The notes beneath the pieces were generated by a model that worked only from the letters and a program-made list of their open reading frames with translations, did not search any database and was not told where the DNA came from. Below, in pieces: positions 41,846-50,000 of a DNA stretch of 64,000 nt. The stretch covers positions 186,001 to 250,000 of the forward strand of contig JAIXOM010000054.1 in the NCBI GenBank assembly GCA_027486755.1, given 5' to 3'. The stretch comes from Comamonadaceae bacterium. GTDB lineage: Bacteria > Pseudomonadota > Gammaproteobacteria > Burkholderiales > Burkholderiaceae_C. The stretch's first letter is position 1; each line of letters opens with the position of its first letter. The position numbers and the translations under genes are program-made.

Positions 41846-44107
41846 ATGAACGATGCCGCCCATCTGGAGCCTGAGTTTTCCTTGAAGTCTGCACCCGAGC
41901 AGGCCGGTGTGCCAGCCAGCCTGGATCTGGGCATTGAAGGCATGACCTGCGCCTCTTGTTCGCTGCGGGTGGAGCGGGCACTCCAGAAGGTGCCGGGCGT
42001 GCGCCAGGCCAGCGTCAATCTGGCCACCGAGTCAGCCCGGGTGCAGCTTGATGCCGAGCAGCCGGGTGAGCTGCCGGCCTTGCTGCGACGGGCGGTGCGC
42101 GAGGCCGGCTACGGTGTGAGAGAGAGCAAGGCCGGGGACGCAGCGCAAAAGCCAAACCCTTGGGCTGGCTTTGCGCCGGTGGCCTGGGCCTTGGCGCTGT
42201 CCCTGCCCCTGGCCCTGCCCATGGTCTCGGCTCTGTGGGGGGAGCACCGGATGTGGCCGGCCTGGCTGCAGTTTGCACTGGCCACCCCGGTGCAATTCAT
42301 TTTGGGCGCCCATTTTTACCGTGCCGCCTGGCACGCGCTGCGCGCGCTTACCGGCAATATGGATGTGTTGGTCGCGGTGGGCACTTCGGCGGCCTGGGGC
42401 TTGTCCATGTGGCTCTGGCTGAGCGCTGAGCCCGGTGCGATGCCGGAGCTGTACTTTGAGGCCTCGGCGGTGGTCATCAGCCTGGTGATGCTGGGCAAAT
42501 GGCTGGAACTGCGGGTCAAGCGCCAGACCACCTCGGCGATCGCCGATTTGCATGCGCTGCGGCCAGCGCTGGCCCATGTGCAGATGCGCTCGGGGGAGAC
42601 GGTCGATCTGCCGGTGGCCGAGATCCTGCGGGGCGATACGGTGCTCATCCTGCCTGGCGAGCGGGTGCCCGTCGATGGCCAGATCGTGCAGGGCCGCAGC
42701 CAGCTCGATGAGTCCATGCTGACCGGTGAGCCCTTGCCGGTGAGCAAGGACGAGGGGGCGCAGCTGACCGGCGGCAGCATCAACGGCGAAGCTCGCTTGC
42801 TGATGCGGGTCACGGCAGTGGGCGCGCAGACGGTGCTGGCCCGCATCATTGCCCTGGTGGAAGACGCGCAGGCGGCCAAGGCGCCGATACAGCGCCTGGT
42901 CGACAAGGTGGCGGCGGTGTTTGTGCCGGCCGTCATGGCGCTGGCGCTGCTGACGTTGGCGGCTTACCTGCTCAGTGGTGCTTCGCTGGAACTGGCGGTG
43001 GTGCGTGCGGTGGCGGTGCTGGTCATTGCCTGCCCTTGCGCACTGGGGCTGGCCACGCCCACCGCCATCATGGCGGGGACGGGCGTGGCCGCCAAGCACG
43101 GCATTTTGATCAAGGATGCGCAGGCGCTGGAGCTCGCCCACCAGGTGCGGGTGGTGGCTTTTGACAAGACCGGCACTTTGACGGTGGGGCAGCCGCGTCT
43201 GATTTCTTTTGAGGTGGTCGAAAGTCAGGACCGGGCGACTTTGCTGGCGGCGGCGGCCAGCCTGCAAAGCGGCAGCGAGCATCCGCTGGCGCGCGCGGTG
43301 CTGGCGCAAGCGCGCGCCGAGGGCTTGACCTGGACCGCGCCCGAGTCCTTGGTGGCGGTCGCCGGGCGCGGAGTAGAGGGCAGCACCGGCGGTCGGCGTT
43401 ACCGCATCGCCAGCGGGCGTTGGCTGGCCGAGTTGGCCGTGCCCCTGGGCCCGCTGGCCGAGGCGGCCGAGCGCCTGCAGCAGGCGCAGGGCGCAACCTT
43501 GTCGGCCTTGCTGCATGAGGATGGGTCGCAGTGGCAGGTGTTGGCCCTGCTGGCCTTCGCTGACCAGCCCAAGCCGGGAGCGCAGCAAGCTTTGGCGGCG
43601 CTGCGCGCGCGCGGCTTGCGGGTGGTGATGATCTCCGGCGACAACCGGGCGGCGGCGCTGGCTATGGGCGCGCGCCTGGGTCTGGCCGACGAGGAGGTGC
43701 TGGCCGATGTGTTGCCGGCCGACAAGGCGGCGGCGGTGCGTAGCTTGAGGCAATATGGCCCGGTCGCCATGGTGGGCGATGGCGTCAATGATGCGCCCGC
43801 ACTGGCTGCGGCCGATGTGGGCATGGCCATGGGCACCGGCACGGATGTGGCCATGAATGCGGCGGGCATCACCCTGATGCGCGGCGATTTGTCTCTGGTG
43901 GCCGCTGCGCTGGATATTTCGCACCGCACCGTGGTCAAGATCCGGCAGAACCTGTTCTGGGCCTTCGCCTACAACGTGGCTGGAATTCCGTTGGCGGCGC
44001 TGGGCTATCTCAGTCCCATGCTGGCTGGCGCGGCCATGGCGCTGTCGAGTATCAGCGTCATGGGCAACGCGATTTGGCTGCAGCGTTGGCGCGCGGGTCG
44101 GGCTTGA
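41846..44107 (+). CDS. copA: copper-exporting P1B-type ATPase
   Basis: A 753-residue heavy-metal pump. It has one N-terminal metal-binding domain (GMTCASC, residues about 32-38), eight predicted membrane helices, the transport motif ACPCALG near residue 395 (CPC, Cu+ type), phosphorylation site DKTGTLT near residue 440, actuator TGEPLP near residue 293, and [10 protein letters not shown] near residue 645. A single HMA domain and CPC point to Cu+ efflux to the periplasm. It is divergent from the Spy-like gene. No other copper genes are adjacent. Confidence 0.95.
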
Positions 44108-44676
44108 GGCCGCGCCACCATCAGGCGGCGCAGTCCTTGGGCCGCACGGTGCGGGCCCGATGGGCGCAGTCCTACAGTGCGGCGGCGCTCCCGCCGGGGT
44201 GACCTGATGGGCGCGCCCCTTAGCATCCTGGCTTCGATGGGCACGGGTGCTACCCCACAGAGGAGCGCAGGACGGTATCGGCGCTATGCCGCTTCCGGTC
44301 ATGGCCGTGTTCGGTTCTTGATGCAGGGAGACAAATCATGACGGTGATACAAGCGGCTGCGCAGACGCGGCCGGGGGGTGGCTCTTGCTCCGAGGTGCAG
44401 GAGCGCCCAGGGGTGGTCTTCGGCCGTCCGCGCACGGGTCCCGCTTGGGCTGAGGGGGGTTCGCGCAGCTTGCGGGCCCGCTCTGGTGTGGCCGAGTTGC
44501 TGCTGCTGCACCGGTTGCGTGCGGGCGCGCCGGCCGGCATGCCTGAGCAGGCTGCGCGGGTGATCGGTCGGACCGCCCAGGCCTGGCTGGTCGGGGGCTC
44601 TGCCGGAAAACCCTAATAAGCCTAAGCGTCCGAACAGGTGATGATTCGGGTTCCTACAAGAAATGGAGCGTAGACC
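44108..44676. other. copA-iorA intergenic region, one doubtful small ORF
   Basis: This 569-bp stretch has no recognisable gene. It contains a near-perfect hairpin after copA (arms GGGCCGCA at 44139-44146 and TGC-GGGCCC at 44150-44158, one bulge) without a T-tract. It also holds one short frame with a ribosome site at 44338-44616. A promoter for the operon beginning at 44677 should lie in its last part, but I could not fix one. Confidence 0.5.
44338..44616 (+). CDS. hypothetical small protein (doubtful)
   Basis: A 92-codon frame preceded by CAGGGAGA 6-8 nt before the ATG. The composition is Gly/Arg/Ala-rich (RPGGGSCSEVQERPG, RARSGVAELLLLHRL), with no signal peptide, no membrane segment and no family I recognise. 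It ends 60 bp before the molybdenum hydroxylase operon. In this GC-rich DNA such a frame can arise by chance, so it is listed only because of the ribosome site and position. Confidence 0.3.
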   Translation: MTVIQAAAQTRPGGGSCSEVQERPGVVFGRPRTGPAWAEGGSRSLRARSGVAELLLLHRLRAGAPAGMPEQAARVIGRTAQAWLVGGSAGKP

Positions 44677-45135
44677 ATGAAACTCGAAGTCAATGGAAAG
44701 GTGCGCGAGCTCGATGTTGAGCCCGACATGCCCCTGCTGTGGGCCTTGCGCGATGAGCTGGATGAAAAAGGTCCCAAATTCGGCTGTGGCATTGCCCAGT
44801 GCGGCTCCTGTACCGTTTTGCTCAATGGCGAGCCGGTGCGTTCGTGCTCCTACCCGGTTTCGGCCGCCAGCGGCCAGAAGGTGATCACCATAGAGGGGCT
44901 GGCCAACAAGAACAAGCTGCATCCGGTGCAGCAGGCTTGGATTGACCATCAGGTGCCCCAGTGTGGCTACTGCCAGGGCGGGCAGATCCTCGCTGCGGTG
45001 GCTTTGCTCAAGAAAAAGCCCAAGCCCAGCGATCAGGACATCGACGCGGCCATGACCAACATCTGTCGTTGCGGCAGCTATGCCCGCATTCGCAAAGCCA
45101 TCCACGCCGTCGCAGGCAAAGGGGTGCGCGCATGA
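44677..45135 (+). CDS. [2Fe-2S] subunit of a molybdenum hydroxylase, IorA-like
   Basis: A 152-residue iron-sulfur subunit of xanthine-oxidase-family enzymes. The plant-type cluster is bound by [11 protein letters not shown] and a further Cys near residue 58. The second cluster is bound by QCGYCQGGQ near residue 99 and NICRCGSY near residue 132. The size and single-subunit layout match isoquinoline 1-oxidoreductase alpha, nicotinate dehydrogenase small and aldehyde dehydrogenase small subunits. Electrons from the Mo subunit leave through it, in this class usually to a c-type cytochrome. Its stop overlaps the large-subunit start by 4 nt. It has no own signal peptide and would be co-exported with the Tat-tagged partner. 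Confidence 0.93.
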
Positions 45136-47297
45136 ACACCGAAAAGCAAGCTGTGCAGCGCCCGGACCGGCGCTTTTTCCTCAAGTCTTCGGCCACCGCC
45201 GCCGCTGGCCTGAGCCTGGGTTTTTACCTTCCTGGCCGCAGCGACGCGTCCGGCGCGCCCAAGCTGAACGCGTGGGTCGAGGTGCGGCCCGACGAGACGG
45301 TGGTGATCCGTTACGCCCGCACCGAAATGGGCCAGGGCAGCCGGACCTCGGCACCGATGCTGGTGGCTGAGGAGCTCGATGCCGATTGGAGTCGGGTGCG
45401 TATTGAATATGTTCCGGCCCATGAGAACTTGGCCTCCAAGCGCGCCTATGGCGACATGGCCACCGTGGGCAGCCGCACCATCCGCCAGTCACAGGAATAC
45501 CTGCGCAAGGCCGGCGCCACCGCCCGGCACATGCTGGTGGCAACGGCGGCCCAACAATGGGGTGTGCCGGCCAGCGAGTGCACCACGACCAAGGGCCGGG
45601 TGACCCACGCGGCCAGCAAGCGCTCCGTCACTTACGGCAAGCTGGCCCTGGCCGCTGCCAAGATGGAGCCGCCCAAGGAGGTCCAGCTCAAGGACCCCAA
45701 GAACTGGACCATCGTCGGCAAGCCGATTCCACGGGTCGACATTCCCGACATCGTCACCGGCCGCATCCGTTATGGCATTGATGCACAGGTGCCCGGCATG
45801 TTGCACGCCGCTGTGGCGGCCTGCCCGGTCTTTAATGGCAAGGTGCGCACCATGGACGCGTCCAAGGTGCAAAACCGCCGCGGCGTTGTCAAGGTGCTCA
45901 ATCTCGGTGAGTTCGTGGCGGTGGTGGCCGACAACTACTGGCGCGCCAAAGAGGCGCTGCGTGAGGTGGCGGTGGACTGGGACGTGGGCCCGCATGGTCA
46001 ACTCAGCACGGCCAGCATCATGGAGCACTTCAAGGGTGGCTTCGATCAGCCCGAGCTGGCGGTGGCCCGCAGCGACGGCAATACGGTTGAGGCCTTGGGC
46101 AAGGCGGGCAAGGTCGTCGAGGCGGAGTACTACACGCCCTATCTGGCTCACGCCACCATGGAGCCCATGGTCTGCACCGCCTGGCTGCAGGCCGATAAGC
46201 TCGAGATCTGGACCTCCACCCAAAACCCCGAGGCCACCTTGGCCACGGCAGCCCGCACGGCCGGCATTGATCAGTCCAAGGTGTTGGTGCACCCGATGCA
46301 GCTCGGCGGCGGCTTGGGTCGCAAGAGCCCGCAGGACTTCACCCGCCAGGCGGTGATGATCGCCAAGGAGATGCCGGGCAAGGCGGTCAAGATGGTCTGG
46401 AGCCGCGAAGAGGACATGCAGCATGACCTGTACCGTCCAGCCAGCTTGGTGCGCTTTAAGGGCGCGCTCAATGCGCAGGGCACCGTGGATGCGCTGCACA
46501 TTCGGGTATCGGCGCCCTCTATTTTGGCCACCTTGTTGCGCCTGCCCTTGCCCAGGGGCGTCGACGGCCAGGCGGTGGCCAGCTTCAATGACCATCCCTA
46601 CGACATCCCCAACAGCTTGGTGGACTATGCACAGCGCAACACCAATGTGCCGGTGGGTTTCTGGCGTACCGTCGGCCACTCGCAAAATCCTTATATGCGC
46701 GAGTGCTTCATCGACGAGATGGCCGCAGCGGCAGGCAAAGACCCGCTCGCTTTCCGGCTAAGCATGCTGGGGGGCAAGCATCCTCGTGACCGGTCCATCC
46801 TCGAAGCTGTGGCCAAGGCCGCAGATTGGGGCAAGCCGCTGCCCGCCGGGGTGTTTCGCGGCATTGCCGAAACCGAGGGCTATGGCAGCTACACCGCCTG
46901 CGTTTGCGAGGTGTCGGTCAATGCGCGCAGCGAGGTCAAGATCCACCGCGTGGTGATGGGTATCGATTGCGGCTATGCGGTCAACCCGGACAACATCGAG
47001 GCGCAGATTGAGGGCAGCGTGGTTCACGGTTTGAGCGCGATCTTCTGGGGCGAGATGACGGTCAAGGAGGGCCGCATCGAGCAGTCCAACTTCCACGACT
47101 ACCGGATGATGAAGCTCAACGAGATGCCCAAGGTGCAGTCGGTCATTGCCTGTACAGGTGGCTTCTGGGGCGGTGTGGGCGAGCCCGCGCAGGCGCCGCT
47201 GGCCCCTGCCCTGGTCAACGCGATTTCGGCCGCCACCGGTAAGCGCTTTCGCTCTCTGCCCCTGAAAAACCACGGGCTGAGTCTGGCCAGGGCATGA
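45132..47297 (+). CDS. Tat-exported molybdopterin subunit of a molybdenum hydroxylase, IorB-like
   Basis: A 721-residue xanthine-oxidase-family large subunit. A Tat signal is seen: RRFFLKSS with R13-R14, then a hydrophobic stretch. The Mo-pterin binding region includes [12 protein letters not shown] near residue 68, [13 protein letters not shown] near residue 395, and the catalytic Glu in [13 protein letters not shown] (about E684). IorB-type enzymes hydroxylate N-heterocycles or oxidise aldehydes in the periplasm and pass electrons to cytochrome c. The next gene is soxX, overlapping by 4 nt, so the natural acceptor may be SoxXA. The substrate is unknown. No MobA/CoxF-type maturation gene is adjacent. 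Confidence 0.93.
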
Positions 47298-47704
47298 GCC
47301 GCTGGGCCGCGCCCCTCGGGGCGTTGGCCTGCGCCCTGCTGGGCACGGCGGCCGCGCAGTCCCTGCCGCCGGCCTCGGCTGCTGGCATTGGCAGTGTGGA
47401 GCGCGGCCGGCAGCTGCTGGCCAACCGCAGCGAGTCGGGCTGCGTGCTCTGCCATGTGGTGCCAGGCCTGCCAGCCGGCGGTGAGCTCGGCCCGTCCTTG
47501 GTCGGCATTGGTCAGCGCAGCACCGCCGAGCAACTGCGCCGGCGCATTGCCGATGCCCGCCTGTTTAACCCCGCCACCATCATGCCGGTGTATTTCAGTA
47601 CCGAGGGCCTGCAAGGGGTGGCCTCGGCCTACAAGGGGCAGACGGTGCTTAGTGCGCAAGGCCTGGACGATATCGTGGCTTATCTCCTGAGCGTGGCGCG
47701 TTGA
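47294..47704 (+). CDS. soxX: c-type cytochrome, SoxX-like
   Basis: A 136-residue exported monoheme cytochrome. The signal peptide is residues 1-21 (ends TAAAQS). Heme site C50-VLC53-H54 is in a SoxX-like context (GRQLLANRSESGCVLCHVVPGLP), with likely distal ligand M97 in NPATIMPVYFS. The sequence GPSLVGIGQRSTAEQLRRRI and GLDDIVAYLLSV is characteristic of SoxX. SoxX forms the SoxXA complex that oxidatively conjugates thiosulfate to SoxYZ. Here it directly follows the Mo enzyme (4-nt overlap) and could also take its electrons. Its stop overlaps the SoxY start by 1 nt. Confidence 0.87.
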   Translation: MSRWAAPLGALACALLGTAAAQSLPPASAAGIGSVERGRQLLANRSESGCVLCHVVPGLPAGGELGPSLVGIGQRSTAEQLRRRIADARLFNPATIMPVYFSTEGLQGVASAYKGQTVLSAQGLDDIVAYLLSVAR

Positions 47705-48246
47705 TGGCGGCTGCGCTAATCTCTGGATCTATGTCTGAAACTCTTACCAGCGTTTGGTCTGCACAGCCGGCTGCGGCTGCGTCCGTATTGCCGCGGCGGC
47801 TGGTCTGTGGCGCCTTGCTGGCCGGTGCAGCGGGCTTGGCCGGCACTGCGCGTGCGCAAAAGATGTTTTCGGGCACCTTGCTCAGCTTGTCTGAGATGAT
47901 GGACCCGATTGTGCGGGGCCGCAGCCTGCGCGAGGGCGCGATCACGATGGAGATGCCGGTGCTGGCCGACAACGGCTTGTTGGTGCCGCTCAGGGTGATC
48001 GTCGACAGCCCGATGAGCGAGCAAGACCATGTGACGCATTTGTATTTGCTGTCGCAGCGCAATCCGGTGACCCGTATGGCGGTGTTTCACTTGGGGCCCT
48101 GGTCGGGGCGGGCCGAGGTCAGTACCCGGCTGCGCCTGGCGGGCTCACAAAAAGTGGTGGCACTGGCGCGCTTGTCCGACGGCAGTTTTCGCTGGCGCCA
48201 GGTTGATGCCATCGTCACCGAGTCGGCCTGTGTGGACGGGAGCTGA
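47704..48246 (+). CDS. soxY: SoxY-like sulfur carrier protein with atypical C-terminus
   Basis: A 180-residue exported protein. A Tat-like signal (VLPRRLVCGALLAGAAG, residues 28-44) ends near TARAQ. The mature body matches SoxY (GAITMEMPVLADNGLLVPLRVIVDSPM). Classical SoxY ends in a flexible GGCGG arm whose Cys carries the sulfur substrate. Here the end reads VTESACVDGS, so a Cys (C176) sits in the expected place after VT but all flanking glycines are gone and the tail is two residues longer. The start is uncertain: ATG at 47704 overlaps the soxX stop, with another ATG at 47731. It partners SoxZ encoded 3 bp downstream. Confidence 0.87.
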   Translation: MAAALISGSMSETLTSVWSAQPAAAASVLPRRLVCGALLAGAAGLAGTARAQKMFSGTLLSLSEMMDPIVRGRSLREGAITMEMPVLADNGLLVPLRVIVDSPMSEQDHVTHLYLLSQRNPVTRMAVFHLGPWSGRAEVSTRLRLAGSQKVVALARLSDGSFRWRQVDAIVTESACVDGS

Positions 48247-48249
48247 AGC

Positions 48250-48594
48250 ATGAGCCAAGCACGTTTGCAGTTGCCAGCGCAGGTGGCCCATGGCCAGGTG
48301 GTTCGGGCCCGTTTGCTGATTGAGCATCCGATGGACACGGGCTACTTGCAGGACCTCGCTGGCAAGCCGGTGCCTCGCAATGTGATTGCCGACCTGACTT
48401 GCGAGTACGGCGGCCGTCAGGTGTTTAGGGTCGAGCCCTCGTCGGGTATTTCTGGCAATCCCTTTTTCGAGTTTTTCTTCCGCGCTGGGGAGACCGGCGA
48501 GCTGCGGGTCAGCTGGGTTGACGAGCGCGGCGCCAAGGGCGAGTTGCGGCAGTTGCTGCGGGTACAGCCGCCATCTTCGCGCCCGCCGGCCTGA
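48250..48594 (+). CDS. soxZ: SoxZ-like sulfur carrier partner
   Basis: A 114-residue Ig-like protein without a signal peptide, exported as a complex with the Tat-tagged SoxY in classical systems. The SoxZ body is clear: VVRARLLIEHPMDTGYLQDLAGKPVPRNVI, then SGISGNPFFEFFFRAGETGELRVSWVDERG. The C-terminus is a short Pro/Ser tail. It lies between soxY (3 bp) and soxA (5 bp). Confidence 0.9.
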   Translation: MSQARLQLPAQVAHGQVVRARLLIEHPMDTGYLQDLAGKPVPRNVIADLTCEYGGRQVFRVEPSSGISGNPFFEFFFRAGETGELRVSWVDERGAKGELRQLLRVQPPSSRPPA

Positions 48595-48599
48595 AGGCG

Positions 48600-49397
48600 A
48601 TGCGGCTCATGCGCAGGCTGCTGGCCGGGGCGCTGCTCCTGGCCCTCGGTTTGGGCTGGGGTCTGGCCGCAGCGCAGCAGCGACACATCCCCCTGGAGCA
48701 ACTGCGCTCAGGTCTGAGCTATGCCGGCGGCGACGTGCGGGCCTTGCAGGCCGACGAATTTGCCAATCCGGCGCAGCTGTGGCTGCAGCGCGGTGAGCAG
48801 CGCTGGAGCGAGCCTGTGGGCCGGGCGGGTAAGAGCTGCATGGACTGCCATGGCGCGGCCAAAGACAGCATGCGCGGGGTGGCAGCGCGCATGCCCGCGC
48901 TAGACCGCCAGAGTGGGCAGCTGTTCATCCTGGAAGACCGCATACGGCAGTGCCGGCAGCGGCATCAGCAGGGTCCGGAGCTGGCTTTCGAATCGGACGA
49001 CTTGCTGTCCTTGAGCTTATATGTGAGCCAGGCCTCGGTGGGTTTGCCGCTGCAGCCTGCGGCCGATGGCCCGGCGCTGCCGCATGTACTCGCAGGCGAG
49101 CGCCTGTTCATGCAGCGTCGGGGTCAGCTCAACCTGGCCTGTAATCAATGCCATGATCAGAATTTCGGTCGGCGCTTTTATACCGACCCGCTCAGCCAAG
49201 GGCAGCCCAATGGTTATCCCGTCTATCGCCTGGAGTGGCAAAAGGTGGGCTCGCTCGAGCGCAGACTGCGCAGCTGTTTTGTAGGTGTGCGCGCTGAGCC
49301 CCTGCCCTGGGGTTCGACGGAGATGCGCCAGCTCGCGCTCTACCTGGGCTGGCGCGGCCAGGGGCTGCCGGTGGAGGTGCCGGCGGTGCGCAAGTGA
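48600..49397 (+). CDS. soxA: diheme cytochrome SoxA-like
   Basis: A 265-residue exported cytochrome. The signal peptide is residues 1-25. Two heme sites are visible, SCMDCH (C80, C83, H84) and CNQCH (C181, C184, H185). Cysteines for axial ligation lie in RQCRQRHQ (C118) and RSCFVGVRAEP (C226). C226 is the position of the cysteine persulfide that is the SoxXA active site, so the catalytic heme appears intact. In thiosulfate oxidisers SoxXA attaches thiosulfate to SoxY. No soxB follows: the next gene is a convergent hemerythrin 1 bp away. Confidence 0.9.
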   Translation: MRLMRRLLAGALLLALGLGWGLAAAQQRHIPLEQLRSGLSYAGGDVRALQADEFANPAQLWLQRGEQRWSEPVGRAGKSCMDCHGAAKDSMRGVAARMPALDRQSGQLFILEDRIRQCRQRHQQGPELAFESDDLLSLSLYVSQASVGLPLQPAADGPALPHVLAGERLFMQRRGQLNLACNQCHDQNFGRRFYTDPLSQGQPNGYPVYRLEWQKVGSLERRLRSCFVGVRAEPLPWGSTEMRQLALYLGWRGQGLPVEVPAVRK

Positions 49398-49398
49398 A

Positions 49399-49899
49399 TC
49401 AGGCCGCGGCGCCGCCGCAGCTGCTGGCTTGGGCAGCCTCCTGGGCTGGGGGAAGTGTGAATTCGCCGGTGTCCGGGTTGAAGCCGATCTGACCTAAATG
49501 CCAGGTCAGCATGGCGTCCATGGTCTGGGCATGCTGTGAAAACCAACGGCCCAGATCGGGCAGGATGCTGCGCACCAGATTCAGGTCGCCGTCTTCGCGG
49601 CCGCAGCGCAGCAGCTCTTGCAGGGTTCTGAGCACCAGCTGGTGCTGCCCGCTGTGGCAATGCTGCGGGCCGAACTGAGTGCTTTCCATCCACCGGTCTT
49701 CCATGCCGAAATGCGCCACCGTGTGGGTCTGCAGGGCTTCGATGCACTCGAGCAGCTGCTCATCGTCGGCCATTTCAGCCGCAGCCAGCAGTTCCACGAA
49801 TTCCTCATGGGTCTGGTCGATGACAGGCATGCCCAGATGCAGGGCATCGGACCAGACCAGGCTGGGGCTTGCGGGAGGGGTGGCGAGTTCGGTACTCAT
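49399..49899 (-). CDS. bacteriohemerythrin
   Basis: A 166-residue di-iron oxygen-binding protein. The ligand pattern is present: H in DQTHEEF near residue 31, HFGMED (His/Glu), H residues in the CHSGQHQ segment, HAQTMD near residue 121 and the final WHLGQ region. There is no membrane segment, so it is a soluble oxygen store or sensor. The C-terminal Ala/Ser/Gly tail is low complexity. The ATG at 49899 is used rather than a TTG upstream. It converges on soxA with a 1-bp gap. Any link to the Sox-like operon is only positional. Confidence 0.9.
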   Translation of the reverse strand: MSTELATPPASPSLVWSDALHLGMPVIDQTHEEFVELLAAAEMADDEQLLECIEALQTHTVAHFGMEDRWMESTQFGPQHCHSGQHQLVLRTLQELLRCGREDGDLNLVRSILPDLGRWFSQHAQTMDAMLTWHLGQIGFNPDTGEFTLPPAQEAAQASSCGGAAA

Positions 49900-50000
49900 G
49901 GGCGTGGGCAATCAGGTGCGGTTGCGGCGGAGGGATGGGCATTGTGCCAGCGCAGCCCTGGCCTGCGCTGGCGAGGGCTACCCCCCCCACCCTGCCGCCC

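Follow-up and report, generated by a model that had tools for sequence, protein, structure and literature searches.

What does a xanthine-oxidase-family molybdenum hydroxylase do in one operon with the carrier and the cytochromes of the Sox system? The question arises from the window analyzed here, a stretch of 64,000 nucleotides from a Comamonadaceae bacterium (assembly GCA_027486755.1, contig JAIXOM010000054.1, positions 186,001 to 250,000). At positions 44677-49397 of its plus strand, six tightly packed open reading frames (ORFs) encode IorA, IorB, SoxX, SoxY, SoxZ, and SoxA in this order. Neighboring frames overlap three times (by 4, 4, and 1 bp) and are twice separated by a short gap (3 and 5 bp); such a run, with overlaps or gaps of ≤5 bp, had been described in the initial annotation and was borne out by the family matches. 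With a confidence just short of even, we propose a conserved periplasmic system, the core of which would be IorAB together with a SoxYZ carrier of its own, the arm of which is modified, and in which a SoxY-bound substrate would be presented to the molybdenum site. This proposal builds on features read from the sequences, namely the gene order and its conservation, the grouping of IorB, the change of the SoxY arm, the absence of SoxXA in some lines, the occurrence of flavocytochrome c sulfide dehydrogenase (FCSD) genes in several positions, and the independence from SoxB.

The conservation of the IorB-SoxY linkage was analyzed from both sides. A profile search with TIGR04487, the family closest to the window SoxY, covered two genome sets, one of the phylum (398 genomes) and one of the family (200 genomes), and gave matches over the cut-off in 14 and 25 genomes, respectively. 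Among 80 SoxY loci read (40 per genome set, the best-ranked plus some weaker matches), IorB was found near SoxY in 50. Of the other 30, 27 were weaker SoxY matches (L099-L104, L124-L144), and those of L124-L144 had a GGCGG or almost identical arm, often with an adjoining soxB; three had an AACIE-type arm, two of which (L094, L096) run into a contig end, the third being L078. The second route started from IorB without selection for SoxY and covered 87 genus genomes plus named contigs (80 of 485 loci kept); all genus IorB places with ≥600 bits were read, one via its named contig, and 12 of the 70 listed below 600 bits were fetched. When loci with identical IorB ends were counted once, SoxY was located within 3.5 kb in 159 of 186 distinct IorB loci from all routes (hereafter linked loci), and in 107 of 109 loci that had been selected by an IorB of the window's group and offer ≥2 kb of downstream sequence. 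Fourteen of the 27 IorB loci without SoxY scored ≥600 bits, with 12 of these ending within 2 kb downstream, and 13 scored lower. None of the 12 fetched lower-scoring genus loci had SoxY within 3.5 kb; 11 of them offer ≥5 kb of downstream sequence, and L245 only 1.1 kb.

Five families of the sample showed the linkage, as did alphaproteobacterial plasmids, and the flanking genes changed between loci. In a convergent layout found in L296 (Limnohabitans sp. Jir61, G572), L282, L284, and L286, all with the SoxY arm TATAC[SF]DET, SoxXYZA faces IorBA on the opposite strand; thus, the linkage survives where a single transcript is impossible. The window type itself (IorB 81-97% identical) was present in 14 of the 87 genus genomes including the source genome, with the arm TESACVD or TDSACVD where read, and eight of these 14 contain a second IorB of the group with 47-51% identity. 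The conserved gene order, the single IorB group, and the alternative layouts that keep the parts together corroborate the earlier view that the molybdenum enzyme and the Sox carrier belong together. The operon is plasmid-borne in Methylobacterium, Neorhizobium, and Roseomonas (L298, L299, L300); the gene table of the Neorhizobium galegae record does not list IorB, which spans two overlapping frames there. In L222 and L230, ~2.5 kb are inserted between IorB and SoxY; the L222 insert encodes a monomeric isocitrate dehydrogenase, with which the ORF of L230 clusters.

The enzyme is of the IorAB type, as it comprises a 2Fe-2S small subunit and a molybdenum cofactor (Moco)-binding large subunit with a Glu in GGVGEP, and the operon has no FAD subunit. 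IorB carries a twin-arginine leader, in agreement with its earlier description as a Tat-exported protein, and the motif GGVGEPA with E684, which we take to be the catalytic Glu of the xanthine-oxidase family. The solved chain nearest to it by sequence is 8gy3_C, the large subunit of an aldehyde dehydrogenase. IorA has no apparent signal peptide and would be exported together with IorB. In a tree of 137 IorBs (137 of 183 rows, quick method, midpoint root), for which 60 rows were drawn at random from the 96 loci that have SoxX and lack FCSD, and rows of interest were added, the SoxY-linked IorBs formed one group with an SH-aLRT value of 100. Two further IorBs fell inside, one from a locus without SoxY (L196) and one from a locus ending at a contig end (L285). 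A Trp at position 679, five residues before E684, was found in 157 of 157 aligned linked rows and a Pro in 12 of 12 lower-scoring rows, in an alignment built from the loci read rather than from a wider IorB sample.

Beyond the initial annotation, the window SoxY turned out not to be a canonical SoxY. Its best NCBIfam match was TIGR04487 ("SoxY-related AACIE arm protein," SoxY_para_1) with 130.5 bits, below the cut-off of 172, and the true SoxY family TIGR04488 was matched with 75.5 bits (cut-off 125). Instead of the GGCGG arm of TIGR04488, it has ESACVDGS; the solved SoxY structures 2ox5 and 2oxg match it up to the arm cysteine. The 158 readable arms of the 159 linked SoxY read AAC (76), SAC (73), TAC (4), AGC (2), VAC (2), and SSC (1), and GGC occurred in none. 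The arm cysteine is kept in all 158, the remaining sequence being cut by a contig end, and a Glu or Asp follows two positions after it in 154 of 159, the exceptions being four loci of family f57 and the cut sequence. GGCGG was present in 18 of 18 soxB-linked SoxY (17 of 17 fetched loci and the canonical SoxY of the source genome). In a SoxY tree based on 113 columns, canonical GGC SoxY formed one group (100/99) and the window SoxY lay outside of it, with weak deep forks. As the swinging arm of canonical SoxYZ carries intermediates to partner enzymes, a changed arm with its cysteine kept suggests a changed partner. Five SoxY with the arm TESAC[LM]DA (L253, L273, L281, L283, L293) grouped with the window SoxY, and the corresponding IorBs belong to the opposite half of the IorB tree; SoxXA was not seen in these loci.

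An excerpt of a study on Bradyrhizobium diazoefficiens reports two soxY genes, of which only soxY1 is essential for thiosulfate oxidation (PMC5748708). Judged from the f48 genomes, taken as Bradyrhizobium, soxY2 would belong to the present SoxY type; that soxY1 alone is essential speaks against thiosulfate as substrate of the present system.

The statement that SoxB and SoxCD are missing held for the operon but not for the genome. The source genome, 100% complete in 64 contigs, carries a canonical soxCDYZAXB set on a different contig (C29), in which SoxC, SoxB, and SoxX exceed their cut-offs, SoxY with a GGCGG arm exceeds that of TIGR04488, and SoxZ and SoxA are also present; SoxD is a cytochrome c labeled from its place and weak cytochrome matches. 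The window operon is therefore not a thiosulfate pathway with parts missing. Neither soxB nor soxC was found within 5 kb in any of the 159 linked loci. Among 54 genomes with this SoxY type, of which 51 were seen to have IorAB, 13 gave no SoxB match, each of them with IorAB; on this basis, it looks like a separate system. Thiosulfate oxidation by an incomplete Sox set was rejected in view of the complete set elsewhere, the different arm, and the 13 genomes without a SoxB match. In the source genome, SoxB encoded elsewhere might be used in trans. The initial annotation had set its hypothesis against a second complete sox set combined with a lack of conserved linkage; the set was found, and the linkage is conserved. 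In G656, an IorAB pair outside the SoxY-linked group (L242) ends ~2.6 kb before canonical soxC, and the corresponding pair of G490 (L236/L237) lies ~10 kb from the canonical sox set.

SoxX and SoxA proved dispensable. Within 5 kb, both were present in 114 of the linked loci, neither in 39, and only one in six, each of which has <1.7 kb downstream. In 31 of the 39 loci lacking both, ≥3.5 kb of downstream sequence was available; the label "no SoxXA" (39 rows, eight with <3.5 kb downstream) required at least seven changes on the IorB tree. SoxA was found in 28 of 29 genomes queried, including G572 and G654, which have a window-type operon without SoxXA, so SoxA may act in trans in some genomes. 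In G584 (one contig, 99% complete), neither soxA nor soxB was matched, and IorA-IorB-SoxY-SoxZ is kept. The dispensability of SoxX and SoxA leaves the molybdenum hydroxylase IorAB and SoxYZ as the core.

Table 1. Genes of the window operon and its neighbors (positions refer to the window)
Gene product	Position	Strand	Properties	Family matches
P-type ATPase	41846..44107	+	heavy-metal type, upstream of the region; named from its own sequence	
IorA-type small subunit	44677..45135	+	two 2Fe-2S domains, 152 aa	Fer2, Fer2_2; all NCBIfam matches below cut-off
IorB-type large subunit	45132..47297	+	xanthine-oxidase-family molybdenum hydroxylase, 721 aa	MoCoBD_1, MoCoBD_2
SoxX	47294..47704	+	monoheme cytochrome c (CVLCH)	TIGR04485, 67.8 bits (cut-off 61)
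SoxY-like carrier	47704..48246	+	arm ESACVDGS, twin-Arg leader	PF13501; TIGR04487 below cut-off
SoxZ	48250..48594	+	carrier partner	PF08770; TIGR04490, 82.5 bits (cut-off 76)
SoxA	48600..49397	+	two heme motifs	TIGR04484, 209.9 bits (cut-off 110)
Hemerythrin-domain ORF	49399..49911	-	converges on the operon	

The components are listed in Table 1. SoxY starts with ATG at 47704 or TTG at 47701. SoxA contains CMDCH from C80, CNQCH from C181, and C226 within RLRSC, so that C226 and both heme sites look intact, as originally noted; residues 32-264 aligned with the diheme cytochrome c 1h31_A, which puts C226 at the place of the cysteine near the C-terminal heme of solved SoxA. Besides SoxX and SoxA, the operon has no cytochrome gene. 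A promoter/terminator scan of positions 44100-50000 gave no promoter-like sites and seven terminator-like sites (shuffle mean 3.4). A single base separates the stop of the hemerythrin-domain ORF from the end of soxA.

An FCSD flavoprotein, identified by PF21706 and PF09242 on three representatives, was encoded within 5 kb in 22 of the 159 linked loci. It was located between IorB and SoxX in 14 (ten of family f48, four of f57), after SoxA in seven genus loci, and divergently upstream in one (L067), amounting to three changes on the IorB tree, at least two of them forced. In three named records, the annotation says no more than NAD(P)/FAD-dependent oxidoreductase, but the protein matches the FCSD query at 390-460 bits. 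In Methylobacterium sp. NMS14P and Neorhizobium galegae its gene stands between those of IorB and SoxX, and in Roseomonas marmotae it follows SoxA, with a cytochrome c. In the source genome, FCSD is encoded on another contig. In family f1, 33 of 35 bearers (including G468, G477, and G549, in which SoxY was seen and IorB was not) contain FCSD, the two others being 85 and 90% complete, as do nine of nine bearers without SoxB and eight of 20 genomes without a TIGR04487 match at 1e-10; these comparison groups are not phylogenetically independent. The four f57 loci, from genomes without SoxB, continue into genes of Moco maturation and synthesis, encoding an XdhC-MobA fusion, MoaA, MoaE, a MoaB/Mog-like protein, MoaC, and MoeA (representatives from two loci).

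For such a system, we infer tethered catalysis with an organic thiol as substrate and a soluble cytochrome c as electron acceptor. SoxXA, where present, would form a mixed disulfide between the incoming thiol and SoxY, and the SoxYZ carrier would present the substrate on its single arm cysteine to the molybdenum site of IorAB, in the way that sulfur intermediates are brought to SoxB and SoxCD on canonical SoxYZ. Hydroxylation by IorAB would take place at the carbon adjoining the sulfur; the product would leave sulfur at the sulfane or sulfide level, to be oxidized by an FCSD encoded either in the cluster or at another place of the genome, and the electrons would pass to the soluble cytochrome c. 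The substrate is probably an organic thiol bound to the SoxY cysteine. Such a mixed disulfide is favored because the enzyme family hydroxylates carbon, because the nearest solved relative is an aldehyde dehydrogenase, and because thiols and sulfide are what the accessory proteins SoxXA and FCSD act on. As no sulfonate would be formed, SoxB would be superfluous.

Several observations weigh against this proposal. The genes themselves do not reveal a substrate, and in G584 loading would have to proceed without SoxA. FCSD is absent from 137 of the 159 clusters; as it is also present in 20 of 20 family f1 genomes in which SoxY matches were only of the weaker kind, it is a general marker of sulfur oxidation. 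Methanethiol oxidase (PF05694), considered as a partner gene, showed no clear association (four of 35 bearers, two of 20 genomes with weaker SoxY, none of 20 without a match). L078 has an AACIE-type SoxY and no IorB in ~5 kb upstream; conversely, L196 and L224 contain IorBs of the group and ≥2 kb of downstream sequence without SoxY. Finally, the five SoxY that group apart from their IorBs indicate an apparent partner exchange, i.e. IorB-SoxY pairs can exchange.

Among the alternatives, IorAB might replace SoxCD and oxidize SoxY-bound inorganic sulfur (sulfane or sulfide), so that sulfide or polysulfide would be handled without SoxB. The FCSD genes in 22 clusters and in the three named records, the retention of SoxA C226, and the dispensability of SoxB fit this explanation. 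We nevertheless regard it as unlikely: xanthine-oxidase-family enzymes hydroxylate carbon or oxidize CO, whereas SoxC belongs to the sulfite oxidase family; moreover, the solved relative nearest to IorB by sequence is an aldehyde dehydrogenase, and the source genome already has SoxC.

A second alternative, which we consider improbable, reverses the roles. SoxYZ would serve the enzyme by delivering sulfane sulfur, with which a periplasmic enzyme of the xanthine-oxidase family would keep or restore its Mo=S ligand. The core consists of IorAB and SoxYZ without SoxXA, FCSD could supply the sulfane sulfur, and an excerpt of one report also ties a SoxYZ-like carrier to quinoprotein dehydrogenases (PMC12997753). 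Against this stand the 12 fetched lower-scoring genus IorBs without SoxY nearby (one with 1.1 kb downstream) and the XdhC-type maturation factor in the f57 loci. In addition, sulfuration presumably takes place in the cytoplasm and precedes Tat export.

The initial annotation had offered two options, oxidation of a SoxY-bound species or transfer of electrons to SoxXA. The former is the best reading left; the latter is weakened because the 31 linked loci without SoxX and SoxA keep SoxY. In its explicit form, SoxXA would accept electrons from IorAB acting on a free aldehyde or heterocycle, with SoxYZ retained by descent. SoxX and SoxA are c-type cytochromes in an operon without a FAD subunit or another cytochrome gene, but several lines without SoxXA keep SoxY, G584 gave no SoxA match, and the arm cysteine is retained in every linked SoxY other than the cut one, which makes this explanation quite improbable. 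That adjacent genes with separate functions stay together by common descent is hardly credible, even though many loci come from related freshwater Comamonadaceae, given the linkage in five families and on Alphaproteobacteria plasmids with changing flanking genes, and the convergent SoxXYZA/IorBA layout that keeps the parts together.

A carrier-bound substrate for IorAB is our preferred explanation. The carrier family name in NCBIfam and the genes, annotated singly in public records, are already known; literature searches brought up neither titles nor opening lines of abstracts that deal with IorAB and SoxYZ together, and no account of the function of this SoxY family. The recurring pairing of IorAB with an altered SoxY in many proteobacteria suggests a so far undescribed branch of sulfur metabolism in bacteria. 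More tentatively, a molybdenum hydroxylase acting on carrier-bound substrate, i.e. swinging-arm xanthine-oxidase chemistry for organic sulfur, may be widespread in Pseudomonadota. If the molybdenum enzyme indeed acts on a SoxY-bound thiol, this would add a carrier-bound mode to a large enzyme family and an organic sulfur route to freshwater groups such as Limnohabitans. The sox genes are commonly used as markers of thiosulfate oxidation; as the present system contains soxXYZA but fits another role, some of the sox genes annotated in bacteria of freshwater and soil may have been misinterpreted. An excerpt of a Polynucleobacter genome paper notes sox genes in common with Bradyrhizobium and not with Cupriavidus or Ralstonia (PMC3308952). 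One SoxY survey, again as far as an excerpt tells, excluded sequences lacking a GGC motif from the set used for its tree (PMC11237559) and would have left out the present SoxY family.

Compared with the canonical Sox system (SoxXA, SoxYZ, SoxB, SoxCD), the window operon shares SoxX, SoxZ, a diheme SoxA with the cysteine at its C-terminal heme, and the SoxY fold with one C-terminal cysteine; in contrast, it lacks SoxB and SoxCD, contains a xanthine-oxidase-family enzyme, belongs to a system in which SoxXA is optional, and has a SAC/AAC arm with an acidic residue in place of GGCGG. With IorAB-type enzymes and the aldehyde dehydrogenase 8gy3 it has the 2Fe-2S and Moco subunits in common, but the IorB group of the window has its own signature, W679, and we know of no carrier protein for 8gy3. 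In the plasmid records annotated with TIGR04487 (Methylobacterium sp. NMS14P, Neorhizobium galegae), the order is the same (IorA, IorB, FCSD where present, SoxX, SoxY, SoxZ, SoxA), whereas the window SoxY does not reach the cut-off of that family and has ESACVDGS at its end, and the window operon has no FCSD. The TIGR04557 quinoprotein carrier (PP_2677 in the ped cluster of Pseudomonas putida), as described in an excerpt of the report, is likewise a SoxYZ-like carrier beside a periplasmic dehydrogenase, but its Y and Z parts are fused, its enzyme depends on pyrroloquinoline quinone, and a SoxH-like zinc hydrolase is present (PMC12997753). The window SoxY and SoxZ, encoded by separate genes beside a molybdenum enzyme, matched TIGR04557 with 51.5 and 55.7 bits, respectively, at a cut-off of 140. 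By analogy, we rate the system as a putatively repurposed Sox carrier with a different enzyme, akin to the quinoprotein-associated carrier.

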